Shown one piece after another: positions 23,801-47,574 of a stretch of 64,000 bases of DNA. Each line of letters starts with the position of its first letter. Positions within the stretch are counted from its first letter, which is position 1. The stretch covers positions 21,245,741 to 21,309,740 of the forward strand of contig NC_049992.1 of NCBI RefSeq assembly GCF_000003815.2, given 5' to 3'. This DNA is from Branchiostoma floridae. Lineage: Eukaryota > Chordata > Leptocardii > Amphioxiformes > Branchiostomatidae. Both the position numbers and the translations under genes were made by a program. Below the pieces are notes generated by a model. It did not search any database. It saw nothing but the letters and a program-made list of their open reading frames with translations, and had not been told where the DNA came from.

Positions 23801-26800
23801 TCCAGTGCTAAGAAAATACTGGAAAATGATAGCCAATTATTTTCTGGCAAGTTCTCCTTCTATCAGTGAGTGAAATAAAGTCATTGAGCTTAAGGCTTCA
23901 CGGAACATAGAGGTGCCCCCGCGAAACCTAGAGGTGCCGCAAGCAAATCCCGAGGTGCCGGTTGCAGGCGCAACGTTTTTTTGAAACTTGAATAATAACA
24001 CAAGTGGCAAGATGCCCCCACCATGCCATCAACATCATCAAGGTTATATTTTGCCTATTTTTCACCAGGCATCAAAAGTTTACATCCTTTTATCACTGAA
24101 AACCTATTTTGGATGCAATTCTAGTCATTTTACAGTGTTTTTTTTAATTGAGTTACAACACTGCGATTTCCACAAAGCTTAACTTGTATCCGTATTCAAT
24201 TTGATTATTATTCAAATTGTGTGTTAATTTGTTAATACATGTACGATGTAGCTTCGCACTGAAAAAATTTGAATTTGAAAAACACCATGCCTTATGTGCG
24301 CTGTTTAGCTGACCACAACTACATCAGCTGCAGAAAACATTGCCATTCTATTTGGGATAGTTTGAACTTAGTGGTAGATTTAGTAATCGTCCAGGAAGCC
24401 AGGACGACAGATTGAGCAGGCTGTCCAGTCTTCCTTCTTCACTCCCCTAACTGCATATGAACTGGGGTCTAAGCTTACTGGCTGCTAATCTCCAAGCAGA
24501 TCTGCTTGGAGATCTGCTATGTGTGAACAACAAGAACCCAATCCAGCTGCGGCAATCACAGTCATGTCCCGTGTTTGCATAAGACACAGGGCCATGCTTT
24601 TGAGTCTTTTCACTGTCAAACTTTAGTTTCCCGCTCACAACATCCTTTCTGTCAACTAAATCTCCTCCTAGTCCTACACTTTGTACTTGATGTTCAGATA
24701 CTATTATATATGAGCTTTTAAGGTTGGTGACACTTTGAACAGATTTTATGTTTAGAATTTAGTTTTTCCCAGAGCTGGTGGGAGCTTATAAGTTATATCA
24801 AGTTGGACCAAATACCAAAATTTTTATTTGACCATGTGACCATGACCGGGTTAATATGCAAACTAAGCCTGTTTCATGCCACATGTCTCTTCATACTGGA
24901 GTCTTGATTGGCATGAGGTGGTTTGCGATTTAGCCAGCTTCAATGTGACTTCCAGCATTCAGACAAAGCCACATTATGCTCACCTCAGTGTTTTCGCCTC
25001 AGAATCTGATTTGCACTTGACTTAGGACCCATTCATGATGCAAAAAATGAAACAGTTCTATCAGTTAGGCCATGTTGATTTGATTATATGGATGACATCC
25101 TCCGGGAACTCCAAAACTGATGCGAGCGAGCGATTAAACAAAAAGTTTGGCCAAAAAAAAAAGTTGCCTTCAGTATGAAATCAAAGTGGCCAGGAAGGTT
25201 GAACATAGGACTAAACACACATAGTATGGTATACCAACAGTTAGGTGTAGGGTCGACCAGTACATCATACGGGTGCAAAACATTTTTTTCTTCTTGGACC
25301 AATCCGAAAAAAACAGACCTGAAAAAAAACCCAGATGAACAGGTTTCGCCAATTACAAAATGGATACACTATGTCGGCAGCCATTTGGGGTCTAACCGGG
25401 GGCCAAGACAAGAAGACAACAAGAGCGAAGTCAAGTAGAGTTTATAGTCAATTGCACCAAGTTTCTACAGTCAAAGGTACAGAGACAGTTAGCCTTTATA
25501 AGTTTATTACATGGAGATGGGATTTTAAAATGCAGTGGAAGTCCAATAATCTACCAAACAGATTCCTTTGTAGCACCTTTGTCTCTGATGTTTTTACATA
25601 TGATTTACTATCCATACTTTGTAAATTTCAGTTTCATTAATTTTCGTTTTACACATGATTTGATATATGATTTGACCTCTGACCTCCACCCCATCTCTTG
25701 ACATATTGATTTTGACCTTGGAACGTTTTCGACTTGAGTATGGACACTGATTATGTTTTGACGCACCGGTTTTATGTTTTCTGTACTGTATGTTGTCCCT
25801 GGGTGTTCAAAGTTTGACTGATTGTTACCACGTTTTTGTCCTGTATGTTATCTACATGTATGTTTGATGGGCCCCCTTGGAAATCAACTATGCACTGTTG
25901 TAGGGGCTACCCATCTGTTTCAAGATGAGATAAATAAAAAAATTAAATTACAAATTACACTGCATGAGAATTTATTTCTACATAGCATTCATTATTTTCC
26001 ACATTTTTCTTTCAGGAAGGAAGTTTGTTACTTTCACTGTTGCAACTGATGAGACTGATGGCTTCAAGAGGTTTATGAGATCAGCAGATAAGTATAATAT
26101 TCAAGTGCAGGTAAGAACGTTACGTTTTATATATTCCCTTTTACTTAATGACATTTGGATCTGATGCTGTCCTGACAAATNNNNNNNNNNNNNNNNNNNN
26201 NNNNNNNNNNNNNNNNNNNNNNNNNNNNNNNNNNNNNNNNNNNNNNNNNNNNNNNNNNNNNNNNNNNNNNNNNNNNNNNNTCCCCAATCTGGCACCAGGT
26301 GTTGGGAATGCACCAGGAATGGCTGGGGGGAGATGTCCAGAACAATATTGGCGGAGGGCAGAAAGTTTTGCTGCTGAAGGAGGCCCTGAAGAAGTACAAA
26401 GATGACAAGGACCTCGTCATCATGTTTTCTGACAGGTTGGTGGTTTTATTCCAATATTGTACCTAGTCATAATTTATTTGAAAATTTTACTATCGACTCG
26501 TGGCTAAATTTTATTATCGACTCGTGGTAAACTGCTAGACAAAAATCTGATGCCCTAATGGGCATTGTGCTTAGTCTAGAAAATTGCTTACAAGTTGACA
26601 ATGTGACTTGTTTTGTTTCAGTTACGATGTGATCATCACTGCAGAAAAGGAGGAGATTTTGCGAAAGTTTGATGACTTCAATGCCAGAGTAGTGTTTGGA
26701 GCTGAGGGCTTTTGCTGGCCTGACAGAACCCTTGCGGTAAATAACAAGAGTCTCTTGACCTCATACCTCCATTAAATATTTAGTCCATACTGAATTGTAT

Positions 26801-28419
26801 TTGTTTGTTATGTATCATCGAAAGTTTTGCCAAAGTGTTCAAGATAGGGCCAATCCTGAATCACAGACAATACAGTCAAACCTGGTGGACCGACCACCTC
26901 TGTATGACGACAAACTGGCCACCACGACTGCTGACGCAAGCATTAACAACTGGATGTCGTGTTCACTATGACATCACGGACATATAATGTTCTGTTGAAC
27001 AGTTCAAACTGCCATGTAATGCGTAGGTTTGCCAATGTAATGCGTAGGTTTGCCAATGTAATGATCAAGATGTGATGGTATGTCAATTAAGCTTAGAAGG
27101 GAAAACCTGGGAAAATATATGGTCCAGCTGAAGTTAGATCAATGACATTTCTTGGCATTTGAAAAGTTGATTCTCAGCTAGATTAGTAACTTGTTGTTTT
27201 CTTCTTTTTCTTAAGGACCTCTACCCGGAAGTACGACTCGGTAAACCATATCTCAATTCTGGAGGTGAGTTTTCCTCAACATTCTTCTTTGTTCCTGAAG
27301 ACAAATGCAGGTTATGGTACAGTTTAACCTTTGTTGAAAACCTTGTCAACCCGCGCTGTGTGCAAGTCCACAGGTCAGTCTGATTCCCAGGGTTTGAAAA
27401 ATTCATGGTTGGTTAGGGGACTGGTGAGGTGGATTGACTGTACAAGGTTAAAATGTATGTCAGGGTATAGGAGAATTCTTGTACACAACCAGGTTAAACT
27501 TACTTGCTTAGGTTTCGCTATCTGTCAGACACCTTCCTCAGACCTTCTGACTGGAGTTCTGCTTCTCACCGCTATATGTAGCAGAAACGTAAGCAAGTAA
27601 GTTTAACCTGGTTGTGTACAAGAATTTTCCTATATCCTATATTCTACCAACCTGATGAAATTATTTTCGGATGTATGTCAAACAAGTTTTTATCAAGGTT
27701 GTTGCACTGCTTTTGCACTCATTTTAAACATGTTCAAAACGTGTGGAAAACGGGGCATGGGACGTTATTTGAAGTCTGTACTGGTTTGGTTGTAATGTCT
27801 ATTTTCTCTTCCAGGCTTCATTGGTTACGCTTCGGAACTTTACCAGATAGTGAGTCATACATCTATCCAGAACCAGCATGATGATCAGCTCTACTACACC
27901 AGGATCTTCCTCAACCCTGAACTGAGAGTAAGTGGTGCCATTGTCACAATAGATCAAACTTACTTCACTTCACTTCACTTTATTTATTTTACCAGGAACT
28001 TACAACTTAGACTAGACTGCCTACATGTATGAAAAACTGCCCAATATAGCTCTATTGGTAGGGCCCTTGAAATACTGTAAATGCAGAAATGTTCGCGGTG
28101 GATTAATGTTCGCGGTTTTCGTGGTGACCACTTCACCGCGAACTTAAAACCACCGCGAACATTTTTCTATTATGGTATTAGACTGCAGTCTATGGTGTTA
28201 CCGCAAACTTAAATCCACCACGAAAAGTCCTTTTTCCAGGTACCGCGAAATTAAATCCCCGGGAAATTAAATGCATTTACAGTATTGGGTGCATATGCAT
28301 TGTGCTCCCAAATTTGGAGCTGGGCACCTAATTGTTATTATTACCCTCACCAGAAGATTATGTTTTGAGCATCTTTGTCTGTCTGTGTGTGTGTCACTGT
28401 GTGTGTATGTGTGTGTCAC

Positions 28420-28450
<31 letters not shown>

Positions 28451-28604
28451 TGTGTGTGTGTCTGTGAACAGCATAACTCAAGAAGCCTTGGATGGATCCT
28501 GATGATATTTAGTAGGTGGGTAGGGGTACCCTCACCAGAAGATTATGTTTTGAGCATCTTGGTCTGTCTGTGTGTGTGTCACTGTGTGTGTATGTGTGTG
28601 TCAC

Positions 28605-28635
<31 letters not shown>

Positions 28636-31600
28636 TGTGTGTGTGTCTGTGAACAGCATAACTCAAGAAGCCTTGGATGGATCCTGATGATATTTAGTAG
28701 GTGGGTAGGGGTCAGGAAAACCCTCAAGGTCAAGTTCAATAATGGGCCCCTTAGCGGTTTGCTAAGGTACTGCAGCAAAACTTTCATTTTTCATATCTGG
28801 TGTTCTGGACACGCTGTGGTCATGAGTTTTGAGTGATAGATTGCCCTTGAGGCAGAGAGTAAGTGCTGTGGGTTTGGACCCCTAGCGACTTTTTTGGAAT
28901 TGCAGGCGCCAATTTCCCGTCAAACTTTTGGTGAGAATACTTCGAGAACATGTTGACAGATCCTCATCACTTTCAGTATGCAGATAGCCTAACATATGAC
29001 TTGACTTACATAATGAAATACAAATTATGCAAATCAGCTATTTTGGCTAATTAATGAGGAAAGTTTATAAATCCACCTCAGTCCATGATAGGACTTTCAA
29101 ACCTGTCACATATGTAACAGTGAAAAAGAGGGAAATGTCGATAGATATCAATCATGCAAACATGACCTCATTTGCATGATTAATCATGAAAACGATTACC
29201 TCATTTGCATGATTAATGAGAAAAATTATGCTTGCATAGTGATAAATCATGAGAATGTCATACTTACAATTATGAAGCTTAGGTGAGGACTTTAGGGGAA
29301 CATTATTATACCTAAATCATGCAAATCAGGTAGATACTTACATACCCCTGTAAATGTATTTAAGTTCGCGGGGATTTAATTTCGCGGTATTGGGAGAAAG
29401 GACTTTTCGCGGTGGATTTAAGTTCGCGGTAACACCATAGACTGCAGTCTAATACCACAATAGAAAAATGTTCGCGGTGGTTTTAAGTTCGCGGTGAAGT
29501 GGTCACCGCAAAAACCGCGAACATTAATCCACCGCGAACATTTCTGCATTTACAGTAGTTTATGAGGAATCACTGAAATTGGCCTTCTCTGCTAGAATAA
29601 AACTTTCAGACTTTGGGCTAGTGCCTCTTGGATAGAGAATATGATCAACCAAGACAAACTATGCAAGTCAGGACCTTATTTGCATAATCAATGAAAAGAT
29701 TATGATTACTTCACCCAAAAAGGTTAAAACCATTTGGCAAAGGTATGAGGTTTTACTGTGGCTGCACCAGTGCACCCAAATATTTGTAGGGTTACGTGTG
29801 TAAAGGTACTGTACAGCATATCCGTGTCAGAAAAAGTAGAAGAAGGGACCTAACGACTGTTCTACCTAGGAAGGTGCATATAGGCTAATTACTGGCAATT
29901 ACTGGTTTAAACAATTAAATGTATCTGTGAAAGCATGTGTTGTTTTAGTTTTTGCAATTTGGATGTTTGTTGCCACTCATGTATTGTCCTTTGTTAACTA
30001 TTACAGGAAAAGTTCAAAATGAAACTTGACCATACATCAGAAATCTTCCAGAACATGAATGGTGCAGGAGGTAAGTCCTCACATAAACACATACAATGTC
30101 ATGCCAACATCAAAGTCAGCCCAGGATAGAGGAGATCAAGTAAACTACTGTTCCATGTATCAAAGTCAATTTTAGTTTTCAATATACTGTGACATACATG
30201 TACATTAGGTATGTAGTCAGTCAAGGGCTCTGTCTTGAAATAATATCAATAGCCAGGAGTAGGATTCCACCTACTAAAGAAATGACTGTTGCCTGAGGGC
30301 ACATGAAGAATTCCAACAGCAGACAAAAGTGCAAAATTCCGCCAAAAGACAGAATGGGGGAACGCTGGCTAGAACATTGCTATAAAAGTATAAGTTGTTA
30401 TTTTGCATGTAAATTTGACAGATTGCTGGTAAATTTTTTGCTAACTTGTAACTTTGCATGTAACCAAAAAAAGTATTTCAAAGCCTGGCTTTTTTAACCA
30501 CATTTCATGAAGCACTGCCTGCTTTGAGTGGCATCTCTGTTGTCTTGCACCTCATGTTGTTTTCATTCCATTTTGGTGAAAAAAAGCAAAGCGGTGAATC
30601 CGTGAACCAAGGAAATAAATTGGTGTGACCTAAAAGACCTGTATGACCTCACGGGTGCCTTTTTCTTCAGTATCTTGCCGACCCTGGACCAAACCTAAGA
30701 CGAACCGGACAATTTTACTGTAATCATCATGAAAAATCCTTGCCGCCACACCCTTCAAAGTTAGGAGATAGTCTTCGCCACATTTTGGAGACATCTTTTT
30801 TAATCGGATAGAAAAAATTCAATTAGATTTGATATTTTATCCACTTTGTTTTTTAAGTGTGAATGAGGTTTTACATGTGCGTTGCCCTGTTGCCTGTGAT
30901 GACATGTCTGTCCTTCTGTCTCATTTTCAGCTGACCTGACCCTGAAGTTTGATGATGACAAGACCAGGTTAAGGAACAGAGTATACAACACAGAACCTTG
31001 CATCATCCATGGAAATGGACCACAAAAGGTAAAGGACACAGCCAAGCCATCTTACTGCATGTGTGATGAGTACACATTATTCAAACAAATTAGGACCTAC
31101 ATGTAGTAAAGCTTGTCATGTAGTGACCATATCTGTAACTTTCTGTAACCTACATACATTGTTTTGGGGTTGTCAATTTCATACCACATGTATTGCTATG
31201 TATACTGGCATTAGTGAAAACTACTTAAGGAGCTAGAGTTCTACCAGAGTCCTGGACTATATGATGTGCCTATCCCAGCACTGGTGATGGTGTGAGGTTC
31301 AGGTTCCTGTTTAGTTGCAACATCTCTGCTTTGTGTTGGACCCACCTGAAAATGATGAAATTGTAATTATATAGGTCAAAAATGTGCTAAAGTTATTTTT
31401 GTTCTTTTCCTCAAGTTGGTGCTAAATCATATTGGGAACTATGTTGCTGATAGCTGGTCCTTTGATGAATGCCACAGTTGCAAGGAAAATACTTTCAGCT
31501 TGAAGACGTACAAGGTAGGATAAAAATGTTCTAATCACATGTAGTTATCTCATCAATGGGATAAATGATTTTAGGATGTGTCATACGTAAAAACCCGACT

Positions 31601-34600
31601 CTTCTTGCAATCACACGATATTTCCCTCACCTTTGTTTTCCAAACATCTGACCTGAATGAATGTGTATATCAATATTTTTGTTATCATACAGGAGTTTCA
31701 TGTGTTCATTAAAATCTTTTAGCTTACTCATTTGTGATACCAGATTCCAATTTACACAAGGGCCTACGTAATTTAAGTATTGGCTTGGTCTGAGTTTAAA
31801 CTGAAGAAGGAATGTTTGAAAAAATGAAAGACAGGTATATTATGAAACGTAATAGTATATTTTTAAAGACCCCTTTACTGCATACAATATTAGATGGCCT
31901 TTCAGCTGGACCAAGTGATTTCTAATCTTCCCTCCCTGATCCCCAGCATTGACAGTGATATCTTGTTTGTTCCAGAGAGATGACTACCCTGTTGTTGTGA
32001 TAGGACTGTTTATTGAGCAGCCTACCCCATTTGTTCCTGAATTCTTGAACAAGATCTACAACTTGGACTATCCCAAGAACAAGATTGTGCTGTTCATTCA
32101 CAACCATGTAAGATACCGGTAACATGAGCAAGTGTAGGATTTAAACCTGGGATCTACAGCTAATACACCCAGCTATAACAGTACAGGCTGCAAAATAGGC
32201 TTCAAATTTCGTAAAACGTCCCGCAGAATTCTGCATGATTTTATGCAACCTTTCGCAGTGTGTTCTGCAAAATTACACAGTGCTTTCCGTGAGAGTCAGG
32301 TGCCTTACACAAATTGCTACCCCGGAATTTTGCAAAACTTATGCAGAAACACGCCACTTTGATATGCAGACCACCTTGGGGGTGGGCGGAGATATTATCA
32401 CACCCAATTTTGTTACCTTTCCTATGAAGCCAGTGCACCAAAGGCGGAATCGTCGTATCCTTCGGAATGGGCTAGTCTATTCTCAGTACTCTACTAACCT
32501 CTACCTTTTGTAGTCATGTACCAAGTTCAATGAAAGTAACCCAAAATCTAGCAAAGTAATCCAAACCTAGCATTTGGCTAAGGTTGCTTGCTTGTCAACC
32601 TGGCTATAAGGTGTACTTGTATTTTGAACCCAGCATATACATGTAAGATAAAGAATTTCTTGGTCAATTTTGACTTTGTGTATTGAATAAAGACTTGTAT
32701 TTAAGTTTGTCATTAGATGAATACATGTAGCCAATATATATCTGTTTTCAGATACATTTAGTGATACTGTTTTGACATTTGATTGACATAATGAGATGAA
32801 ATGATTGGTATTTCAGGAGGAACACCATGCAGGTGATGTGCAGGAGTTTGTGAAGAACTATGGTGGGGACTACAAGGCAGTGCGAGAAGTCACCCCCAGT
32901 ATGAACATGAACCAGTGGTACGCCAGGAAACAGGGCCTGTAAGTTACACAGTATCAACACACATCTACACACAGCTGACAAAAAACAACTTGTTTTACCT
33001 TTATCTTAGGCCATGTTGATTTGATTATATGGATGACATCGTCTGGAAACCCCAAAACTGATGCAAGCCCGTGAATAAAAAAAAGTTGCCTTCAATATGA
33101 AACCTTAATGGTCAGGAAGGTTGAACATAGTACTAAACACACATAGTATGGTAAACCAACAGTTAGGTGTAGGGACCGGTACATCGTATCCATACAAACC
33201 CATTTTTTCTTCTTCTTGGACTGGTCTGAAAAAAACACCTGAAAAAAATCAATGGAACGGATTTCACCAATTAGAAAATGAACACACTATATTGGCAGGC
33301 ATTTGGGGGCTTACTGGCCCAACAAAATAACAAGAAAAGTCGAGTAGAGTTTAAATAGTCATTTGGACTCATTCTTATAGTCAAAGGTACACAGGCAGCT
33401 GGGCCCCATTCGTACTAACTAAGCTTGCCAAATCGTATTTAGAGCCAAGACCACCAAAGCAGTATTCTTGTGGCTCAGTATGAACGCTCAAAGTCACATT
33501 GAAGCCGGCTAAACCGTGAAACACCTCTTACAGGTAGTTTTGATGTGGCACAGGCGACTCACGGTTCTAGTATGAACACAAATGTGGCGTGAACCCGGCC
33601 TTTATCTTGTTACCCGTACGGGGGAATCCTGTCTCAACTATGATGTCATAGGACTAGAGACCAACTGCCTACGTCACACCTGCAATGGCTTAGTCCCTTA
33701 AAGTGCTCCACTTTGTACAGTAGTTTGTATCCATACAGCTGAACATGGGCTGGGTTTGATTAGGTAAAAATCAGACTCACTTGTCTTAATTTATAACATT
33801 TATAGGCATCTGACATTCTATGATTTAAATTCACTAGCTGACATTTTTGTTCTATCAAGATCTGAGTGCATCGGTGTCAAGTGTGACTACTACTTATCAG
33901 TGGATGCTGATGTACAGATTACCAACCCCAAGACTCTACAGATCCTGATACAGCAGAACAGGTGAGACAAGTTCAGTTGTTAAGTACGTTATGTTAACAC
34001 AGATTATAGTCGAAAGTCATACTAGATATTCTTTTTCACAACCAGTAGGTACTTACTGTGGCGTTAGTGTGGCGTAACTGGTAGAGCGTCCGAAAGGTTC
34101 TGAGTTCAATACCCACCACACCCTGACATTGTGCCCTTGGGAAAGGCACTTTACACGACTTTCCCTGACGATAGAGTGACATCCACCGCCTCTTTGGCTA
34201 ATCTGTCTAATTGTGTGCCCGAAAACACACTGCAGATTTGGTGCGCCAATGTACCAACATCTGCACATTGGTCTCCCACCAAACCGTTAACTTTGGCTTA
34301 TGCTTCGATGTCTCTTCAGACACCTTCCTCAGAGGGTGTTCTGCTTCTCGCAAGTAAGTAGCCGATGTAGTTGGCGCTTTTGTTGTTTTGGCTGTATATG
34401 ACCTTGGCCCCCTTCCAGTCAACCATGCAATTGTTCCTGGCAATGTGGGTTGATTTTCTTGCCGCAAAAGCGCCACGTACATCGGCTACTTATAGCAGCG
34501 AGAAGCAGAACTCCAGTCAGAAGCTCTGAGGAAGTAGTCTGAGAGACATTGAAACGTAAGCAAGTAAGTTTAATTTTGGTTGTGTACAAGAATTCTCATA

Positions 34601-37600
34601 TATCCTATATTCTACCAACCTGATGAAATTATTTTTGGAAGAATATTGTGAAAAAATCCCCCCAGACCCTCTGGACAAAAAGGAGGAGTGGTACAGTTGT
34701 ATTTAGAAGTAGAACCCAAGATACACATTGATGCGTCTGAGATGTGTTAATGATAACAGTTTTCCTCTGACTGAGACACATCTTCCAGTGTTTTTCTAGT
34801 TGATTTTCCTCCTCACACCTGAACTATTGTGTTACAGATCTGTCATTGCTCCCATGGCTACCAAGTATGGTAAGCTGTGGAGTAACTTCTGGGGTGCCAT
34901 TGGTGATGATGGCTTTTATGCAAGATCGGACGACTACATTGACATTGTGCAGGGCACCAAAAAGTAAGGAGTAGGTCATATTTGACCTTTGTGATAAAAG
35001 GAAGGAACAAATTGTTCAATGAATAAGTCAATAAAGATTTCAATATGCATTAATATGATATCATCCATGACGTCATTGACATATTATATTAAGGTCATGG
35101 TTCAGAGTTTTTGTGATGATTCAGGGGCGATTTGAATGTCGATAAGTGATAGCACTTCTCAAAACATCTCAGAACCGGAACCTTAAATCAGCATGGCCGC
35201 CTGTGCAACATGACTGCTCCACAACTGGGGGTCAAAGACCCTTAGGTCATTCACTTCACCTCGCCAAAATGGCTCCAAAAAAGTCATTTTGAAGTGGTCT
35301 TTGCTGTTTATTATACATTGTTTGCACAAATATTCAAAGCACCCCTCTACCTAACTTCAGGTCATTTGGTTGTAACACCAAGGTACCAAGGGGCAAGATA
35401 TGCATTTTTGAGTTAGAATGGCCTGAAAACTTCAGTAAAGTCATTTTAAAGGCAAAAAATTAAAAGGGTAACTGGGTATTGGCCTACTTTACCGTTGTGC
35501 TAAATTTCAGGTCATTTGGCCCAGAAATGACAGTGATGAATGGATTTGAAGATCTTACAGGAGAAGGAGAAGAAACATCAGGAAAAGCAAGATATTTCAA
35601 CCCATGCATGTACCTGTGATATGGTTGAAATATGATTAGTGCTGCAGTGCTGTTTAACATTGTCCCCTATTTTTTCAGAGGTGTGTGGAATGTGCCGTAC
35701 ATAAACAATGTGTACCTTATCCATGGAAGTTTGCTTCAGCAGCCGAAGACCATGCCAAATTTTATTGTGGGTCAGCTAGATGCAGATATGGCCTTCTGTG
35801 CAAGCTTAAGAGAAAAGGTCAGTTTAACTAGATTTAGAATTATATGTTCTCTAATTTTTTAAAAATGGTTGTAACTTGTAGAAAGAAATTGGTTTACTTT
35901 TTAATTTAACCATGCACGGCATTGAACAAGAGTGTCAAGCTAATTATTACCTTTACCGTTAATGTGATATAACCTTTTTTTTAATCTTGATTTTGATTAT
36001 TGACTTGTTGACTTGCACAATTGATACTGTTAATGCATTTAAGTTCACGGTGATTTAATTTTGCGGTAGGGGGGAACAGAATTTTTCACGGTGGTTTTAA
36101 GTTTGCGGTAGCACCATAGACCACAGTCTAATACCATTTTGGAAAAATGTTCGTGGTGGTTTTAAGTTTGCGGTGATGTGATCACCGCGAAAACCGCGAA
36201 CATGAATCCACCGCGAACATTTCTGCATTTACAGCATCTTGTATTAGTTGCCTTTCGTTTTGATTGTAAGATATGGCTCTAAATCTGATAAGAAAAAAGT
36301 ATGGGGGTGGGTGAAAAAGTAGGGTATGTGTTGGTAAAGAATACATATCCTTGTTTGATTTCCTCTCAGTTCAAAGTACTCCACTGGAACATGTAGTAAC
36401 CATATTATAGTAGTTTTGTTTTCATGCGGAGGGGTCATTTTTTGAAATGGTGGTGGGATTGTGTAAAATTTGTCTGTTCAGTTTTGTTACTAATATTTTA
36501 CTGTTCTAGAGGTTCTATATCAAACAATATTCTCAGGAAATGTGATATTTAGTAGACTTGTCAAAATGGGTTTGATTTTATTTTCTTGAGTAGAGTACAC
36601 ATATCAATGTTCACAGTGTGTTCTGTACCAAATAAAGTTATCTGTTTGTTTCTTGTTTGGTCACTTTTTGGGATATATCCATTTCTTTGCTTGTTTACCC
36701 AGGGTATCTTCATGTATGTAACCAATATGGATACTTTTGGTCGGCTGACAACAACAACAAGCTACAGCACAGAGCACCTCCATCCAGATATGTGGCAGAT
36801 GTACGACAACAGACCTGTGAGTATGTCACATGTACCGTACATGTGTACTGCACTTCTGACTTTTAGCAGAAGTTTATTTCACTGAACAGTGTAGTTTGGT
36901 CACAGTTTACACATTTGTAATTAAAAAAAAAAGAATGATATCCTGTTTGTAATTTTTAACAAGTTGTGTTGACAGAAAAAATGTTACCATTTTGGGTCGA
37001 ATTACATGTACCTTCTATATCAGAGAAATCCCTGAAATGGAGAATGTGATTTTTGCGACAATGTCTCCAGTCGGGGAATGAAAAGAATAATGGCCATTAA
37101 AAAAAAAAAGATGGTTTTATCAATGTCTTGGTCAGAATGCCTGGATATCTGATACCTGTCTGGAACACCTGGATATCTGAAGTGTGCATGCCTTTGACAT
37201 TTAAGATTCATATGTGAATTTTTTGTTAACAAAGTAATTTAAACATTTACCCCTTTCAGGACTGGGAAGAAAAGTATATTCACGCAGATTTCTACAAGAT
37301 GTTGGACCCTAAAACAGAAGTTGAAATGGTAGGTCTCTGTGTTTCCAGCATCAATGTGTATCACAGTTCAGGAAAGAACGTAAAGCACCCGTTACCTCAT
37401 TCTGTGTTCTTATACCAGATGCATGTCCAGAGCAATCATTCACAGTTGATTGTGGTCATTTATTTCAAATCAGAAAATTATGAAGTGGCTTACCTAAGCA
37501 TAAAATGCAAAAAGGCACTTCCTAAAAAACCTTTGTTCATACCATACTGCAACAGTTTGTTATCTTGACAATAACCTAGAACTAAAGCCACAATTTTTGC

Positions 37601-40600: not shown

Positions 40601-43600
40601 AGGTCCGGTTTTTCTGGACCGGTTCAATGAGAAAAAACGGTTTTGTACCGGTACCCAGCCCTACTCATGGCCCTGGCCTAGCCTCACAGTCACAAGGAGA
40701 AGAATCCGGATTGGGCGTCCTACCAAGTTGTCAATGACGGCTGGGCAATCCGGACTAGGAAAGGCCGCCAACGGATGTCAGACAAGATGAAAACTTAGGC
40801 CTATCTGACTGACATTTTCAATCGGGGGGCTACGTCTGGGCAGAAAGCTGGTGCTGTGCAAGTGGCCCACGAGATGTGCACAGCACGTTAGGGAATCTGA
40901 TGGCAAGCGGTTGTTCCAGCCCAGCGAGTGGCACACAGCCAAGCAGATTACAAGCTATTACAGACTTTCAGCAGCACAAAGACAGCAAGAAAGCACAGAA
41001 TTTCTGGTCACCGACATGGAAGCGATAGATGAGGAAAGTGAGTGGCAGGCGCCGCAAAAGACAGTGTATACTTTAATTCTAAGTATTGGCTACAGTCATC
41101 CTGTCATGTTTGAAGACATAAACTTGTGCAAACTCAGGCTAAAACTAAAGGTCTCAAATCAATAAAGCTAAAGCAACTAAAGTGCATAATCAGAACATTT
41201 CTATCTACCCATTACAGGTTCTACTCTTTTATACAGGCATTAGAGAACATCCTATCCACATGTGCAAGTTGATTTTTTTTGTAATTTGACAAAGTAATTT
41301 GTCGTATAGGTCTCATGTCAACAACGAACACCTGTCTGCTCTTGGTTGGAAAGACCTTGCCTCACGTCGTAAATTGCACCTTCTACAAACTGTCTATAAG
41401 TCAATATATAACCTGTTACCTGTGTATCTTAACATATTTAGCAGAACATCAGAATCCCATAGCTATTCCACCAGACATAGTTTAAACCAGTCGTTGAGGA
41501 TTCCGAAGGTTAAACTAGAATCTGGGAAACGAACATTTGCATATAGAGGTGCAGAAAGCTGGAATGCACTCCCACTAACTGTGAAAACTGCTCCATCTAC
41601 ACAAACATTCAAAACACTGTGCAAGAACGTTGTGTGACCTCTGACCTCCACCCCCCCTTAATGACTTGGAACGGAAAAGGATGTGGTTTTGTTTTTGTAA
41701 TTATGTAAATATTGTATTGTATTGTATGTATTGTTATTTGTTTATGTATCCAGGGCCTCCATGAAAAACAGTGTCAGCCACTGATCGGAGCATACCCTGG
41801 TTAAAGAAAACAGAAATAAATAAATAAATAAATAAAGTTTTGTAACATGATTTTTACAACTGTATAGAAACTCTGTACCAAACATGTGAATGTTTTGGCC
41901 TAGCCACAATCGTAATCTCTTACCCTTTGGAGGTAAAAAATTACATCAGACCCAGCTTATTGTACCAGTCCAATAAAACTGAAAGTGTGCATTTGTGAAT
42001 ATACATTTCAACAGTGCGTTTTTAAGTATTTTGCAGACAGTATGCTCCATTGTAATAGGGTTCTATATGTAGGTTTCTCATAAACTTAATGTTTCTAGTC
42101 TGTCCTTATGGTGATGAATAAATGAACAGTCAGGCATACTAACAAACCATTGGTATACTTTTACATATCGTATTTTGTTAATAGCTAAAATTCTTTGTTA
42201 GGGTCATGTTTCTATGTTGAAGATTGCCTATCATAGTATGAGGTCACTCATGTGGCCTGCAGTGCAGTAAATAGTATGTGGAGTATAGAGATAACCCCCA
42301 TGTAGATCATTTTTCCAGTATGTATTACATAGGGAAAGCGCACTTTGTAAGGGACTAATTGACGTCTTAGAGATACTGAGATGTGTAAAAGCAGCTTAAT
42401 TCCATTTCACACATCCTTATATGCCCCATACAGAGTTCAAATGAATAGCAGTAAATAGTTATAGCTTTTTTTGATAGTTAAGAATTGTTCCTATACAGAA
42501 ACACAAATAAATGACATAACTTACCCCATATTGAGCACTTACAGAGCAGCAAATCCGGGTAAAACCAGCATATTTCAAGTGGCCGTATATCCCCCATACA
42601 GAGCCCCAATAATTACTTGCAATTAGCTGAAGCATTTTTGACAATTAAGCAGTGATCCTACACAGGGACACCAAAAAGTTGCCGTCCATTATCCCGTAGT
42701 GAGCAGTTATTACCTGTTTTGACATAGTCAAAAACCTGGAAAATCCCCATAAAGACCCCCCCCTCACGGCTCGTGGTATACATGACCCAATTAAACGACG
42801 CTTGATTTTCAATTAGTAGATATTCCTCTCTGCAGTAAAGGTAAAATCATTCATTTAAATTACTGGGTGTCGGAGAACAAGCCCCTTAAAGATCACAGAA
42901 ATTCAGAGAGTTGAAAATCGTGTTTTCACTGGTTCTGGTAACCCCCTGTAACACCCTCTCAATTTCAATACTTTATCTTCAAATTTTTATCAGTAAAACT
43001 CAAGAACACATGAAATATGGGAATATAAAACTTTTTGTCATATCTTAATCAGAAGTATCAGAATAGCCATTGCAATTTCAGTAATTTTCAGTCATCAAAA
43101 GTTTGATTTTGGAGGGTCTCAGAGGGGGGCCCCAGAACGCCATAACGAAAAATAGCTGGAGGGTTTTAATCATATGGCTGTTCATAGTTCCGCATACCTA
43201 TCCCACATAAAAAGTTTGAGTTGATTTGGCCGACCCCTATCTTCCGACCTCTGCCTGGTTTTCTCCTGCAATGACTCTTAAGCAAGACAAACAAGGCCAC
43301 ACTTCTTACTGGCACGGAATGATGTGATGATGATGCTTCTTTGTCAAATAATTTGAAGTGGCAAGTTTGCTTGAATGGAGGACATCTGTTCATTATCTAT
43401 TTTGGGGGTCATATTCATAACCTGCATCAAAGTGTGCGTCCAATTTTAATGTCAGCCTTCGGTACCCTGTTTCTAATGTGGAACATCTAGCAAGTGTACA
43501 GTTTATTACAGGACGTACTGTAGGATGCCAGGAGTAACTTGTGATGCTATGATAATGCTGTGTAGTCATCTGAAGACAGTTCCATGAAAGAACAGGATGC

Positions 43601-46600
43601 CTAGGCCTAATGGTTCCCTTTTTGTTTCCTCTAGCCATGTCCAGATGTGTACTGGTTCCCAATAGTTACGGAAACTTTCTGTAAGCACCTTGTGGAGGAG
43701 ATGGAGAACTATGGAGAGTGGTCTGCTGGGAAGAATGAGGTTAGTGAACATGTCCACATGACCTGCCAGCTTGCTATATAAGTGTAGAATTGGAATGGAT
43801 TCGGCTTACTTGCAGTGTTACATGTTTGCATGTGTGTCAATGACAATAGACAATAATCAGGGTTCATGCTAGCATACAAAAATGTACATGTCGTTCAGTG
43901 TAGGGGGCCCCTATGCTGTGAGTTGTATCCCCTAGCTACGATTTGAGCCCCTATACTGTGTTTCAACTAGTTTAGCGGCCTTTGTATTGTTTTGTAACAG
44001 AAGAAAAAAGGTTTTGACTTTGATTCATGAAATTCGGCTCTCAAATCCTAGAAATAGTATTTCTAAGGGAAAGGATGTTAATATTAAGTTCAAGGCCTGA
44101 GCATGGGGTTAGGTCCTTTTCATCAACCTTCGACAACCTTGTGTGAAGAAAGTAATGGACACCTATATACAAATTACCCCGGATTCATCCTTGCATAGGC
44201 CCGCTTTAGACTAACAACACTTAGATAGTTGTGTGACTGTTATTGCCTATTGTTGTGGGCAATGATTGTCTTAAGATGGATTCCGAGTCTTTGGGACGAC
44301 TTATGCTGCCTGACATCATAGCGTAGCTCATTAATAGTATGTGATTTCCAGTCCAACCAAACATTCTATACGAAGGAGTAACATTACCGTGTGGAGATGG
44401 GGACAAAAGTAGCCAGCGGGACTTGGCAGGAGGAAACAGTGGACACCGCAGGGTGTTCATGATGAGCTCAGTCCTCTTTTTATATAAAATCCTTGCAAAG
44501 GGTAAATTATGATTCAAGTTGCAGGGGTAGGATGCCCCCAGGCCCCCCAACAATGCTCAAGTCAAACCTATACCACTTGCAATGTGGCTTTGCCACACTA
44601 AGATGCCCCTACGCTGTAAAAAAAACCCTGTTATTGTTAAGAACCCTGATATTAGTGCCTGAAATATCCATCAGTGTGATGAGGACTGCTTGGTCAACTT
44701 TTCTAACTTCTGTGAACAACACTAATTAATTTAACATTTACCTGATGCCATTTCTTCTGATTATTTATGCCATGAATATATATTATGTGTTTTGTACCTG
44801 ACTACTCTTGGTTACACATGAACCTTTACAATGTGTGTGTGTTAGATTTCACCCTACATTCTTTTTCTGCAGCTTTGTTTACTTCTCTTTTATTTCATAG
44901 AACTCCCAGTCGGTGCTTTTTTATTTTGAGTGTACTGAATTTCTTCTTTCCTCCAATAATACTTCAATACACATAGCACCCTAATTACATGTACTCCCGG
45001 GGTATGCGTATACATGTGTATGTAAGGGACCTACTGACCTACAGCGTAACATTTCAAAAGTAACAGAACTGTTACTTTTGAAATGTTCTAACATTACTTC
45101 ATTTAGATGTTGGTGTGCGGTGGTGGACATGGTCACATTTATCCTTTTTTCTCCTGTTTCTTAGTTTGCTGTGGCTTCCTGTAACAGAAGTATTTTCCTT
45201 TCATAGGATCTCCGCCTATCCAGTGGATACGAAAATGTACCAACAGTCGATATTCACATGAATCAAATTGGTTTCGAGCGCGAGTGGCTTCATTTCCTCA
45301 AGGAGTTTGTGACGAAACTACAGGAAAAAGTATATCCTGGGTATTACTCCGAGGTAAGTACATGTGTGAGTGGTTAAAGTGCCACATAAAATCCAGTTTG
45401 TTTTTGCATCAGGACCAGAGGCTGCCATCAGGGTACGAGAATGTGCCTACCGTAGACATCCACATGAGACAGGTTGGGTTTGAAAAGGAGTGGCTGACCA
45501 TCCTGAAGGATTATGTTTGTAAGCTTCAGCTCAAAGTCTTCCCAGGGTACTTCTCCCCGGTGAGTAACACGCTAAAAGTGGAGCATCTTTATCTCCTAAC
45601 CAATGCATTAGGACCCACGACTGACAACGGGGTACGAAAATGTTCCAACGGTGGACATCCATATGAACCAGATAGGATACGAAAACGAGTGGCTTTATTT
45701 CCTGAGGGTATATGTAACTAGGCTGCAGGCAAAGGTCTACCCCGGGTACCTGTCTAGGGTGAGTTCTGATTGCAAACAGTTGCCAGGTAAGTATGCTCTT
45801 CCCATAGCTGTGTAGTCCGCTTTCCAATCAAAGCAGCTCATCCAGTCCACTAGGCAGTGAGGACTACGCTTTGCAACTACCTGTACAGTAAGCTTCACGC
45901 ATGCTTTCACTGTTGTAAGCCATGACGGCTTTGACTGACAGTTTTGACAGTGGGACATGGACAACTCTCCAGGTACAGAAGGTAATGTCCAGGTCATGTC
46001 TGACCATGGATGACATCTGACTCATGATGAAGACTTCGGTACAGATTCTTCCATCAACATTGCTTTTCACATGCTTTAGATTTTTTTATCTACACTTCTT
46101 TTATAGTATTCATGGCATGGTAAGTCATGTTGTTGTCATTCTGTGCTCACAGCACTTGTGTGGGGGTGGGGTTGGTGGGGGCTCATATGTAATTGTACGT
46201 ATTCATAGTCACATCCATATTGGCAAGTAACACCTTCCCGTACTAGATGTTTGTGCCATATTCAATCTCAAAAAAGCTCTGATTGACCATTAAAATTTAA
46301 AGGTCTCTTCAAGAGAGGTGGTCATTTAAGTCGTTGCAGAAGATCAACATTGCTTTCTGCTTAGACATAACAAGCACATGCATTTGTGCACACTCTCTTA
46401 ATTCCACCATCAATATTTTAATGGTTGTTCATCAGGTATGCTGATTCAGAAGTACCTGTTGTTTTGAAGCCAGAGTGATTGTTGAATGTTTTACATTCGT
46501 CATGACTAAGTGTTGATTCTCTTGTCTGTGACACTGTAGGCTCAGGCAATTATGAACTTTGTGGTTCGCTACCATCCACAAGAACAGCCGTTCCTGAGGC

Positions 46601-47574
46601 CCCACCATGACTCATCTACCTTCACCATCAACCTTGCTCTCAACAAAGCTGGCGTGGACTTTGAGGTATGAAGTGTTGTAGACATTTTTCTGTACAAGAT
46701 GCATCCTACCACCTATCAAAAAGACAACCCATCCAGGTTATTGTGGTCCCAGACACACTCATTTATACACACACTTACACTACCGAAAACACAGCCTTTA
46801 GGGCAAAGGTAACTATATTAATAGGCTTGTCTACGGCACTGTAGGTATGGCGATGGTGACTTTTTTTTGTACATCCAGATACATGCTTCTTACTGTGCTC
46901 AGAAGCCATATGCTAGTTGTACGTATGATGATGATAGTTATGAATCAGATGATATATATACAATATATACATCAGGCCTCGAAATTCATTTTTGGAATTA
47001 GGTGCACTGGTGCACCCAGCTTAAAAAATTGGGTGCACCAAAACATTTTTGGGTGCACCACTTAAATTTAAGTAGAATGTCAGAAAATCCTAATAATAAA
47101 ACTTAGTTACAAGCTATCAAATTCTTAAACAAGTACCATGACAGACATTTTTATTATCTTTCTAACACTTTGTAGATGTCAAGAAGAATATGATGTATAC
47201 TAGTATACTTTGATATCTTTACATACATAAGCCTATGAAAATATTTGGGTGCACCCACAGAAAATAATCGGGTGCACAGCTCCAATTTTAGGTGCACCTG
47301 GGTGCACATGCATCCAGTATTTCGAGCCCTGTACATGTATATTATGACTTAGCAATTCTATTTCTAGATATTTTTAGCTTAGAGAACTGAATACCAGGTG
47401 TCTACTGTTTCCTTGCAGGGAGGAGGTTGTCGCTTCCTTCGTTACAACTGCTCCGTAACCAACACAAAAATGGGCTGGTTACTGATGCATCCTGGTCGTC
47501 TGACCCACTATCACGAAGGCCTGCCAACTACAAATGGAACAAGATACATCATGATTTCCTTTGTGGACCCTTAA
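20749..47574 (+). CDS. PLOD3: Procollagen-lysine 2-oxoglutarate 5-dioxygenase (lysyl hydroxylase), complete, 734 aa
   Basis: ER-lumen enzyme that hydroxylates collagen lysines and, in LH3-type members, glycosylates the hydroxylysines. Exons: 20749-20845, 26016-26110, 26299-26435, 26622-26736, 27216-27264, 27815-27927, 30007-30070, 30931-31028, 31416-31514, 31976-32107, 32817-32938, 33860-33961, 34838-34963, 35679-35817, 36703-36816, 37260-37328, 43635-43739, one of 45207-45353 / 45413-45559 / 45612-45758, 46540-46665, 47419-47574. All have GT/AG borders and agreeing phases, totalling 2205 bases, against about 727-738 residues in vertebrates. A signal peptide is followed by the GT domain with D109-S-Y-D112 and H250 (Mn2+ ligands in human LH3: D112, D115, H253). 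The C-terminal dioxygenase has H663, D665, H715 and R725 (human LH3 H667, D669, H719, R729). DSYD and the Cys in GFCWP are LH3-like; LH1 and LH2 differ there. Lancelets may carry a single pre-duplication PLOD, so the symbol is tentative. Confidence 0.95.
21772..21991. mobile_element. Small TTAA-flanked MITE
   Basis: ACTGCCAAACCCGG at the left and ACTCTGGCAGT at the right are inverted ends, each next to TTAA (21768-21771 and 21992-21995). TTAA duplication is used by piggyBac, Kolobok and some Sola transposons. The inside has repeated CCCGGATATA motifs. It abuts another repeat cluster on its right. Confidence 0.6.
21996..23245. repeat. Composite repeat: CGTAGAGCGTAAT blocks around four ~190-bp units
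   Basis: Outer blocks repeat CGTAGAGCGTAATC and variants (22020, 22079, 22141, 22167, 22192 and 23144, 23175, 23204). Inner blocks repeat a unit with AAAATGCAGGAAATGG...TTTCAGAGGGT at about 22230, 22400, 22590 and 22800. The whole is bracketed by GGGGCCCCCAAG and CTTGGGGGCCC. The inner unit also occurs twice at 55280-55610. No protein is recognised; it lies in PLOD intron 1. Confidence 0.7.
23300..25020. other. PLOD intron 1, no recognised gene
   Basis: AT-rich intronic DNA without supported exons. The only structure noted is a perfect 22-bp palindrome at 24489-24510, built from CTCCAAGCAGA and its complement. Confidence 0.5.
25069..25490. repeat. Interspersed repeat, TTAGGCCATGTTGATTTG family, copy 1
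   Basis: It starts AGGCCATGTTGATTTGATT and is collinear with 33009-33396 down to GTCAAAGGTACACAGGCAG-like sequence. The first copy is inserted in or next to a CATTCATGATG element (25024). No ORF shared by both copies. Confidence 0.7.
25636..25945 (+). mobile_element. LINE 3'-UTR fragment
   Basis: TGACCTCTGACCTCCACCCC is shared with the 3' UTR of the CR1-like copy at 41299. A GGGCCCCCTTGGAAATCA...GGGGCTACCC stem is followed by a GATAAATAAA tail. No RT sequence is left. It lies just upstream of PLOD exon 2. Confidence 0.5.
26181..26280. other. Assembly gap (100 N) inside a PLOD intron
   Basis: The gap falls between PLOD exons 2 and 3. The protein reads continuously across that junction in the family alignment (NIQVQ then VLGMHQEW), so no coding sequence appears to be lost. 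Confidence 0.9.
26299..26736 (+). CDS. PLOD3: PLOD exons 3 and 4: glycosyltransferase metal site
   Basis: Exon 3 (26299-26435) has the IGGGQK signature and ends in the codon for Ser110. Exon 4 (26622-26736) continues YDVII, so the DSYD metal motif is split by an intron. Exon 4 also has GFCWP with Cys141, equivalent to Cys144 that matters for LH3 galactosyl/glucosyltransferase activity. This suggests the enzyme can glycosylate hydroxylysine; that remains an inference. Confidence 0.85.
27466..27634. mobile_element. Fold-back element with ~50-bp arms
   Basis: Arms at 27466-27515 and 27584-27634 are reverse complements with about two mismatches (GTACACAACCAGGTTAAAC against its complement). The central loop contains CTTCCTCAGACCTTCTGACT. 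A related right arm and its flank TCCTATATTCTACCAACC recur at 34553-34640. Confidence 0.8.
28073..28284. mobile_element. Palindromic MITE (TACTGTAAATGCA family), copy 2
   Basis: A complete copy of about 212 bp with ends TACTGTAAATGCAGAAATG and GCATTTACAGTA and central TAGACTGCAGTCTA. It has many GTTCGCGGT motifs in alternating orientation, so a single strand can fold into one long hairpin. It lies in a PLOD intron. Confidence 0.9.
28342..28712. repeat. 185-bp tandem duplication containing (GT)n
   Basis: The unit from TACCCTCACCAGAAG through GTGTGTCACTGTG to GATATTTAGTAGGTGGGTAG occurs at 28342 and 28527 almost unchanged. Each unit contains a GT microsatellite with CACTG breaks. Open frames across it are spurious. 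Confidence 0.9.
29345..29557. mobile_element. Palindromic MITE, copy 3 (inverted)
   Basis: It is the reverse orientation of copy 2, complete, with the same TAGACTGCAGTCTA centre and TGCATTTACAGTA end. It lies 1.06 kb from copy 2 in the same PLOD intron, so the two could pair with each other in the pre-mRNA. Confidence 0.9.
30007..31028 (+). CDS. PLOD3: PLOD exons 7 and 8: end of the glycosyltransferase domain
   Basis: Exon 7 (30007-30070) encodes [16 protein letters not shown]. Exon 8 (30931-31028) starts after TTTTCAG and ends with [10 protein letters not shown], where His250 matches the third metal ligand (His253) of human LH3. Phases 0/1 and 1/0 agree. Confidence 0.85.
33009..33396. repeat. 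Interspersed repeat, TTAGGCCATGTTGATTTG family, copy 2
   Basis: Collinear with 25069-25490, including GGTTGAACATAGTACTAAAC and TTAGGTGTAGGG. It is followed by a block starting GGGCCCCATTCGTACTAACT. It lies between PLOD exons 11 and 12. Confidence 0.7.
34058..34200 (+). mobile_element. tRNA-derived SINE, truncated
   Basis: An A-box-like GTGGCGTAACTGGTAGAGC and a B-box-like GGTTCTGAGTTCAATACC are followed by CTTGGGAAAGGCACTTTAC, the same body as the SINE at 5095. The 3' part is missing or replaced by the fold-back element that follows. Confidence 0.65.
34338..34511. repeat. Fold-back repeat with ~45-bp arms
   Basis: GTTCTGCTTCTCG...AGTAGCCGATGTAG...GCGCTTTT (34338-34381) is the reverse complement of AAAAGCGCC...CATCGGCTACT...CGAGAAGCAGAAC (34466-34511), with a few mismatches. 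It is nested in the same repeat that gives the right arm of the 27466 element. Confidence 0.75.
36025..36236. mobile_element. Palindromic MITE, copy 4 (inverted, more diverged)
   Basis: It starts TACTGTTAATGCATTTAAG and ends TTTCTGCATTTACAG. The centre reads TAGACCACAGTCTA, so the palindrome is broken by substitution. Several GCGG motifs are changed to ACGG/TGCGG, consistent with greater age. It lies between PLOD exons 14 and 15. Confidence 0.85.
37841..38345. mobile_element. 505-bp element nested in the left arm, 8-bp target duplication
   Basis: The inverted repeats are about 78 bp long, from CATCCTCACACTCAGGG to CCCTGAGTGTGAGGGTG, and both contain TGATATCGTTAGG-type sequence. The element is flanked by TGCAGGAG on both sides (37833-37840, 38346-38353). 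The right arm of the host element has the empty site. The interior has no transposase. P-like and hAT-like elements make 8-bp duplications. Confidence 0.9.
39604..41060 (+). pseudogene. Decayed ORF of the TTAA element (CDR/zinc-finger type)
   Basis: Conserved-looking blocks survive in shifting frames: [11 protein letters not shown] (39604), then [20 protein letters not shown] and NEKHDV (39645), [13 protein letters not shown] (40053) resembling a C2H2 finger start, [16 protein letters not shown] (40740) and [16 protein letters not shown] (40900s). From memory these resemble uncharacterised transposon-linked proteins found in cnidarians and lancelets; that match was not checked. Stops and frameshifts separate the blocks and an hAT-like element sits in the middle, so it cannot make a protein. 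Confidence 0.55.
40222..40663. mobile_element. Non-autonomous hAT-like element with 8-bp target duplication (442 bp)
   Basis: The ends TAGGGGTGGGTATCGG and GTACCGGTACCCAGCCCTA are flanked by CTCATGGC on both sides (40214-40221, 40664-40671). It is nearly collinear with the copy at 15475-15918. It interrupts the decayed ORF of the surrounding TTAA element, so it is younger. Confidence 0.9.
41299..41840 (+). mobile_element. 5'-truncated CR1-like LINE with (ATAA)n tail
   Basis: The open frame to 41637 encodes a LINE ORF2 C-terminus: [41 protein letters not shown] and [13 protein letters not shown] before the stop. A 3' UTR of about 180 bases ends in AAATAAATAAATAAATAAAG. The RT palm and endonuclease are absent. 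It is inserted inside the TTAA transposon. Confidence 0.85.
43635..43739 (+). CDS. PLOD3: PLOD exon 17
   Basis: It encodes [20 protein letters not shown] followed by [15 protein letters not shown] and ends GAG|GTTAGT in phase 0. It is the constitutive exon immediately upstream of the three alternative 147-bp exons and reads in frame into any of them. Confidence 0.9.
45048..45087. other. Perfect 19-bp inverted repeat upstream of the triplicated exon
   Basis: AACATTTCAAAAGTAACAG is followed by AA and then its exact reverse complement. The hairpin lies 120 bases upstream of the first alternative PLOD exon, in the intron all three isoforms share. It may be a splicing-related structure or a tiny transposon footprint. 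Confidence 0.7.
45207..45353 (+). CDS. PLOD3: PLOD alternative exon 18a (147 bp)
   Basis: Residues 593-641 of the dioxygenase domain, beginning [18 protein letters not shown] and ending KVYPGYYSE. Acceptor TTTCATAG, donor GAG|GTAAGT, phase 0/0. It shares [13 protein letters not shown] and EWL with 18b and 18c but differs along the following helix ([12 protein letters not shown]). This segment directly precedes the exon with the Fe-binding His and Asp, so the choice of exon could tune substrate or sequence preference. Confidence 0.9.
45413..45559 (+). CDS. PLOD3: PLOD alternative exon 18b (147 bp)
   Basis: It begins [18 protein letters not shown] and ends KVFPGYFSP, has the same length and phase as 18a, acceptor GCATCAG and donor CCG|GTGAGT. 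It differs by [18 protein letters not shown] and carries an extra Cys (VCKLQ) absent from 18a and 18c. The intron from 18a is only 59 bases. Confidence 0.9.
45612..45758 (+). CDS. PLOD3: PLOD alternative exon 18c (147 bp)
   Basis: It begins [18 protein letters not shown] and ends KVYPGYLSR, with the same length and phase, acceptor GCATTAG and donor AGG|GTGAGT. It carries [20 protein letters not shown]. The intron from 18b is 52 bases. No stop or frameshift is visible, which argues for maintained function in all three copies. Confidence 0.9.
46540..46665 (+). CDS. PLOD3: PLOD exon 19: Fe(II)-binding HxD
   Basis: It encodes [19 protein letters not shown] with His663 and Asp665, the first two iron ligands of the 2-oxoglutarate dioxygenase, followed by [10 protein letters not shown]. 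It joins in phase 0 to any version of exon 18. Confidence 0.92.
46973..47331. mobile_element. CAGGGCTCGAA-family element, GGGTGCAC-rich
   Basis: It begins CAGGCCTCGAAATTC and ends CCAGTATTTCGAGCCCTG, an inverted pair, and contains many TGGGTGCACC motifs. It lies in the last PLOD intron. Relatives are at 3205-3427, 8960-9300, 11737-11825 and 18305-18754. Confidence 0.75.
47419..47574 (+). CDS. PLOD3: PLOD last exon: third iron ligand and 2-oxoglutarate Arg
   Basis: It begins [12 protein letters not shown] and contains [13 protein letters not shown], where His715 is the third iron ligand, then NGTRY with Arg725, which binds 2-oxoglutarate. It ends SFVDP and TAA, the family's usual C-terminus. 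NCS is a potential N-glycosylation site. Confidence 0.93.

Follow-up and report, generated by a model that had tools for sequence, protein, structure and literature searches.

Three tandem versions of a catalytic-domain exon, most likely spliced one at a time, in an amphioxus lysyl hydroxylase gene

A lysyl hydroxylase (PLOD) gene runs along the forward strand of the window (the whole 64,000-nt stretch of Branchiostoma floridae DNA that was analyzed), from at least position 26016 to a stop codon at 47574. Exons e2 to e20 were assembled exon by exon; all borders are AG/GT, the frame is open throughout, and the product comprises 701 residues without the first, signal-peptide exon, which was not located in the window. 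Joined exons encoding 445 residues matched residues 273 to 715 of the LH3 chain with an E value of 1e-176, and the N-terminal part of the gene was covered by tblastn with an LH3 query sequence; homology to LH3 spans the glycosyltransferase, accessory, and LH domains. In a letter-by-letter alignment to LH3, the HxD...H iron triad, Arg599, Asp597/Asp611/His613, Leu715, and Tyr642 are all present. Between e17 and e19 the gene holds three alternative exons, A, B, and C, so that the gene model gives three in-frame products of 701 residues, one with each exon; over its 701 residues, the exon A product shares 96.4% identity with a PLOD from Branchiostoma lanceolatum. The window contains three runs of N, the nearest more than 15 kb from exons A, B, and C. 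The features are as follows.

26016..37328, + strand: exons e2 to e16, glycosyltransferase and accessory domains (gene assembly; tblastn)
26181-26280: run of N between e2 and e3
43635..43739, + strand: constant exon e17, upstream partner, ending ...GKNE, with Asn at the position of LH3 His595
45207..45353, + strand: alternative exon A, 147 nt, phase 0/0, LH3 597-645, last residue E
45354..45412, + strand: intron A-B, 59 nt, without a match to the YTNAY branch-site pattern
45413..45559, + strand: alternative exon B, 147 nt, phase 0/0, Cys at LH3 632, Pro at 601, last residue P
45560..45611, + strand: intron B-C, 52 nt, branch-site candidates CTAAC (A at nt 40) and TTTAT (A at nt 32)
45612..45758, + strand: alternative exon C, 147 nt, phase 0/0, Pro at 598, last residue R
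46540..46665, + strand: constant exon e19, HxD iron-binding motif, downstream partner
47419..47574, + strand: last coding exon e20, with the Leu715 equivalent, the second iron His, and the stop

Two repeats were also seen in the window. A 635-nt inverted repeat (38364-38998 and 42628-43262; 98% complementary, 3.6 kb apart) sits inside the 6.3-kb intron between e16 and e17 and looks like a recent insertion of a foldback or long-terminal-inverted-repeat transposon. A minisatellite at 52863-54267 repeats a 22-bp unit 64 times.

Exons A, B, and C are adjacent, homologous, and equal in length and phase, with intact splice sites: tttcatag/GAT...GAG/gtaagtac for A, tgcatcag/GAC...CCG/gtgagtaa for B, and tgcattag/GAC...AGG/gtgagttc for C. 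A first-pass annotation of this DNA had described three 147-bp exons of phase 0/0 with AG and GT borders, and its coordinates, lengths, and phases proved exact; the gene model likewise reproduced the introns of 59 and 52 nt between them, a 12-residue block and the motif PGY common to all three, a Cys confined to B (LH3 632), and the HxD exon as the next exon after the triplet. The remaining 18 introns of the model measure 186 to 6306 nt, compared with 59 and 52 nt inside the triplet. A 17-base degenerate core of the exon has 3 matches in 64 kb against 0.01 expected, which excludes a chance origin of the triplet. In an nhmmer search of window positions 25001 to 50000, the three full copies were the sole strong matches (E values of 4e-43 to 4e-45); the next best match had an E value of 1.6, and on that basis the presence of extra or relic exon copies elsewhere in the gene was rejected. 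Two nearby elements were noted. A strong 5' splice-site-like sequence, CCAG/GTAAGTATG, lies at 45785-45794, 28 nt past the exon C donor; splicing there would put the transcript out of frame, so the site may act as a decoy or have a regulatory role. A perfect 19-bp hairpin with a 2-nt loop lies at 45048-45087, about 120 nt 5' of exon A.

The copies differ from one another at 54 (A and B), 47 (A and C), and 45 (B and C) nucleotides, an identity of 63 to 69%. By codon position (first/second/third) the differences number 10/11/33, 5/11/31, and 10/11/24, respectively, and in the 12-codon block common to the copies all 8, 7, and 6 pairwise differences fall at third positions. dS was 1.94 for B and C and saturated for the other two pairs, with dN between 0.16 and 0.26; 32 to 36 of the 49 residues are identical between copies and 13 to 17 differ. 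Changes unique to one copy are enriched at third positions (Fisher's P of 5e-7 for A, 0.012 for B, and 0.012 for C). The intron flanks of the copies are 18 to 48% alike over 40 nt, the highest value being that upstream of B and C, and the near-saturated synonymous sites and dissimilar flanks rule out recent duplication or gene conversion. On this substitution pattern A, B, and C are old exons under protein-level selection, and the first-pass reading of them, as alternative forms of a single catalytic-domain exon in a lysyl hydroxylase gene, is upheld: all three are intact, old, and constrained.

The sole amphioxus protein among those listed in our searches, B. lanceolatum "isoform X3", carries exon A alone; its exon is identical to A at 46 of 49 residues, to B at 33, and to C at 38. 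As this exon is the match of A, the duplication should predate the split between B. floridae and B. lanceolatum. Exons B and C were sought in Branchiostoma partial proteins, with none found among the best 120 of 376 rows; no row in that set exceeded 73% identity, and so none comes from Branchiostoma.

By sequence alignment the exon corresponds to residues 597 to 645 of human LH3, starting exactly at Asp597, and to residues 604 to 652 of the 745-residue B. lanceolatum protein; the numbering 593-641 given in the first-pass annotation rested on that reader's own start and was not confirmed. In LH3, residues 590 to 610 are the capping loop above the active site, a second iron held by Asp597, Asp611, His613, and His595 locks this loop, and Arg599 imitates the lysine substrate; residues 618 to 639 form a helix, the loop at 640 to 650 forms part of the dimer interface, and Phe639 and Tyr642 line a pocket for Leu715 (parts of PMC6082870 and PMC9453210). 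Asp597, Arg599, Asp611, His613, and Tyr642 are unchanged across A, B, and C. Constant exon e17 encodes Asn at residue 595, so that the protein lacks one of the four residues that bind the second iron in LH3. The 18 variable positions comprise 598, 601, and 602 in the loop, 13 within 615 to 639 (strand end and helix), 643, and 645. Variation along the helix had been claimed earlier and holds, but the copies also vary in the capping loop, before GYENVPT.

The last residue of the exon can be compared with viral L230, in which Tyr798 and Tyr801 belong to the pocket and Lys804 is part of the cleft; the K804E change raised the Km for collagen from 2.6 to 9.6 μM, with dimerization kept and activity on a synthetic peptide largely retained (parts of PMC5802723). 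Tyr798 and Tyr801 align to 639 and 642, which would place Lys804 on 645; the structural mapping to LH3 and L230 is by sequence alignment and counting. At this cleft position A has E, B has P, and C has R.

Taken together, the locus is most likely a tandem-duplicated cluster of three exons spliced in a mutually exclusive manner. One 49-codon exon would be picked per mRNA, and each version would supply the capping loop from Asp597, the next strand and helix, the dimer-interface loop, and the cleft residue. The constant Asp597, Arg599, Asp611, His613, and Tyr642 would let every version keep catalysis, and the versions may tune collagen binding or gate opening through the loop prolines (598 in C, 601 in B), the helix surface, and cleft position 645, which is negative, neutral, or positive by version.

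Joining of A to B or of B to C would be prevented by introns of 59 and 52 nt that are too tight between 5' splice site and branch point. A lower limit of about 50 nt for this distance is given in parts of PMC7969005 and PMC5740500; it was measured in other systems and may not be that of amphioxus. No figure for amphioxus was found in the open-licence literature. Introns of 50 to 60 nt are spliced in some animals. In intron B-C, the better candidate, CTAAC, sets the predicted branch A 40 nt from the donor by a YTNAY scan, a crude method whose only hits in the ordinary intron between e17 and A lay 65 and 3 nt from the acceptor. If the limit of about 50 nt holds in amphioxus, A-B and B-C joining are unlikely on these spacings. 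The first-pass annotation had suggested that splicing of two copies together may be sterically blocked; the intron lengths would fit this for A with B and B with C, but not for A with C, where donor and acceptor are 258 nt apart. Since steric hindrance cannot bar A+C, other control is needed, and because double inclusion stays in frame, frameshift decay cannot remove A+C products; a further regulator or an RNA structure would have to prevent them. RNA pairing was examined in 8 duplex tests with 60 shuffles each, which took in the two inner introns, stretches of 100 nt preceding A or following C, and flanks of 600 nt. The lowest fractions were 1/60 and 2/60, uncorrected; no pairing stood out in these tests, and a docking-selector structure was unsupported.

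The exon was then followed through 354 distinct proteins, namely the best 120 rows of each of three protein searches, with 6 rows shared. It is present in 349 of those listed, two exon matches occur in 11, and adjacent distinct copies occur in 9, fractions that are not frequencies in nature because doubled-exon rows tend to rank high. All nine are from Pancrustacea, a membership that we take from the organism names, so the arrangement is not confined to amphioxus: these nine predictions hold two tandem copies of the same exon. They come from the ostracod Darwinula, the copepod Tigriopus, the ants Camponotus and Trachymyrmex, the bee Dufourea, the wasp Cotesia, two Timema (P0067 and P0146), and the dragonfly Ladona. 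Left out of the nine were P0072, a Sinocyclocheilus model with identical copies 91 residues apart, and P0242 from Fasciola, with two LH-domain stretches. The latter, a Fasciola gigantica prediction, repeats LH-domain sequence on either side of a portion of the preceding domain, an arrangement that may reflect a model error or a tandem gene.

The Pancrustacean copies lie exactly 49 residues apart in 8 of the 9 rows; in the ninth, P0038, they are 34 residues apart because the first copy is cut short. The two copies are 59 to 63% identical (seven pairs compared). Among the proteins listed, the second type of copy occurs alone in four ants (e.g., Linepithema isoform X2), Phymastichus, Leptopilina boulardi, and two further contig proteins, and the first type occurs alone in many insect proteins; one-copy insect exons were typed by eye, except for rows in the tree described below. 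For P0290, of the second type, 727 codons fit on a contig no longer than 2615 nt, suggestive of a spliced transcript. In Camponotus floridanus, a two-copy model (P0008) occurs beside a protein named isoform X1 with the first copy alone (P0247). Exclusive use of the exons in ants is thus supported by annotation, short of proof.

In a tree of 58 hand-chosen rows and 49 columns, 30 of the 55 inner branches stayed open. A, B, and C form one group in the best tree, with weak support (44/85), and the placement of P0341 is weak as well (93/14). Placing B or C with the second copies of arthropods was marginally rejected (AU P of 0.0415 and 0.0237, two tests). Neither a single clade of all second copies (AU P of 0.27) nor one of all Pancrustacean copies (P of 0.235) appears in the best tree, and neither was rejected. 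These results favor, without proving, separate duplications in amphioxus and Pancrustacea.

Ten copy pairs, three from amphioxus (not independent of one another) and seven from Pancrustacea, were compared position by position with single-copy members of the family. The positions that vary between copies are mostly those that vary among single-copy members (r of 0.82); as the differences follow family tolerance, no case is made for selected functional divergence. Position 645 differs in 9 of the 10 pairs, against 7.8 expected from identity-matched single-copy pairs. Selection on its charge was considered and is unsupported, the charge class changing in 9 of 10 copy pairs and in 63% of the identity-matched single-copy pairs. 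Since position 645 varies family-wide anyway, a functional role for E, P, and R is something that we infer, and an effect of this residue on cleft charge is offered as a testable proposal. More differences than expected were found at 643 (10 against 6.3), 615 (8 against 4.1), 636 (7 against 3.6), and, in arthropods only, 600 (5 against 1.4); fewer were found at 610 (0 against 5.3) and 634 (0 against 5.6). All of these values are uncorrected.

The neighboring exon shows a related pattern in fish. Among 240 proteins examined, which come from two of the three protein searches and fall within the 354 listed, 19 carry the HxD exon twice in tandem as two different copies of 42 residues each (P0004-P0007, P0009-P0013, P0015-P0021, P0023, P0204, and P0238). 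Eighteen of the 19 are from fish, sharks, or rays, and 15 of these are named PLOD1 or PLOD1-like. A single HxD exon occurs in six PLOD1-like rows picked by motif, of the first type in P0121 and P0167 and of the second in P0126, P0131, P0191, and P0198. Fish PLOD1 may possess an exon switch in the iron-binding motif itself.

Several other explanations of the triplet were weighed. That it is an assembly artefact has next to no probability: the window does contain three runs of N, and the copies are known from one haplotype, but they are 31 to 37% different, their flanks are dissimilar, and the N runs are distant. Near-saturated synonymous change with most residues kept shows that assembly did not create the triplet. 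It is very improbable that a single exon works while its two duplicates decay or go unused. The sole listed B. lanceolatum protein, carrying A, would fit that account, but the synonymous divergence, the agreement in 32 to 36 of 49 residues, the third-position enrichment of copy-unique changes, and three intact sets of splice sites all stand against it; age and constraint make dead exons unlikely. Hardly more probable is the inclusion of two or three copies together in a longer LH domain. An exon of 147 nt keeps the frame, A+C is sterically possible, the nine Pancrustacean predictions contain both copies in series, and two HxD exons are joined in fish PLOD1 models that bear the name isoform X1. 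Against this, the inner introns are very short, the sole listed amphioxus protein has one copy, insect proteins with a single copy exist for both types, and a second strand-helix unit in the catalytic domain would presumably be hard to fold.

Two further accounts concern what the choice among the exons means and where the triplet came from. The versions may be spliced exclusively and yet be functionally equivalent, kept by drift or for regulation at the transcript level. We regard this as unlikely, if well short of negligible: the differences lie chiefly at family-tolerant positions, and the iron, gate, and pocket residues are constant, but three distinct versions have been retained until synonymous sites neared saturation, the same exon was duplicated in Pancrustacea, and the excess of differences at 643, 615, 600, and 636 and the deficit at 610 and 634, uncorrected as they are, point the other way. 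Somewhat less probable again is a triplet that descends from a duplication shared with arthropods and did not arise within the amphioxus lineage. In its favor, Pancrustacea double this very exon with the same boundaries, the tree has few columns and many open branches, its amphioxus grouping is weak, and the best tree lacks a clade uniting all Pancrustacean copies, although such a clade was not rejected; the amphioxus grouping, weak as it is, and the marginal rejection of B or C with the second arthropod copies nevertheless speak against a shared origin. Mutually exclusive use of three exons in the amphioxus gene is the reading that we retain.

Tandem duplicated exon clusters are a known kind of arrangement; a three-way version in a lysyl hydroxylase was not found among the best-ranked matches in the open-licence literature. 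The mutually exclusive exons of alpha-tropomyosin are a like case of short donor-to-branch-point spacing. In OGDH, exclusion between exons 4a and 4b is ascribed to a branch point less than about 50 nt from the upstream 5' splice site, the distance being 25 to 41 nt in humans (parts of PMC7969005). OGDH differs in having a pair of exons, mapped branch points, and an intron of 118 to 131 nt in birds and mammals, compared with 52 to 59 nt in amphioxus. The nearest functional parallel is P4HA1, whose exons 9a and 9b are mutually exclusive, with inclusion of 9a up in hypoxia (parts of PMC11868403); like amphioxus PLOD, it is a collagen-modifying hydroxylase with a mutually exclusive exon choice. 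It differs in being another enzyme with another target residue and in having two exons, not three. Within the lysyl hydroxylase family, PLOD2 has one small optional exon, 13A, in place of homologous alternatives, and we take this exon to lie outside the catalytic domain. Splice variation in PLOD2 is nonetheless a likeness within the family: as the first-pass annotation had it, PLOD2 has an optional exon, and 13A is the source of two splice variants, LH2a and LH2b, of which LH2b is linked to telopeptide hydroxylation (parts of PMC6031748). Alternative splicing of human PLOD2 is reported to be regulated by RBFOX2 (parts of PMC9666651). The Pancrustacean PLOD pair resembles the amphioxus cluster in that the duplicated unit is the same 49-codon exon, whose boundaries agree in 8 of 9 rows; it differs in having two copies and a probably independent duplication. 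No description of an exclusive or duplicated catalytic-exon switch in PLOD was found among the best-ranked matches in the open-licence literature, nor one there of an exon switch in an amphioxus lysyl hydroxylase or of recurrent duplication within the LH domain. Two papers that matched on PLOD splicing dealt with LH2/PLOD2 variants, or cited work on them, and did not treat the exon described here; the word "PLOD" is absent from the main text of PMC5740500 and PMC9741552.

A broader interpretation can be offered tentatively, and we would put its chances somewhat below even: that the LH domain is a recurrent site of exon switching, arising separately in amphioxus with three versions and in Pancrustacea with two, and touching the neighboring exon in fish PLOD1, so that the choice of exon would swap cleft charge and gate behavior and provide several specificities per gene, as PLOD1-3 do in vertebrates. 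If the amphioxus exons are used one at a time, a single gene would give three enzymes that differ at the presumed collagen-binding site near the active site. Should the three products be made, lysyl hydroxylase specificity could be compared among natural isoforms differing by 13 to 17 residues, located in the capping loop, a single helix, and the collagen cleft. Production of all three would also suggest that animals diversified the modification of collagen lysines through duplicated exons in addition to duplicated genes.
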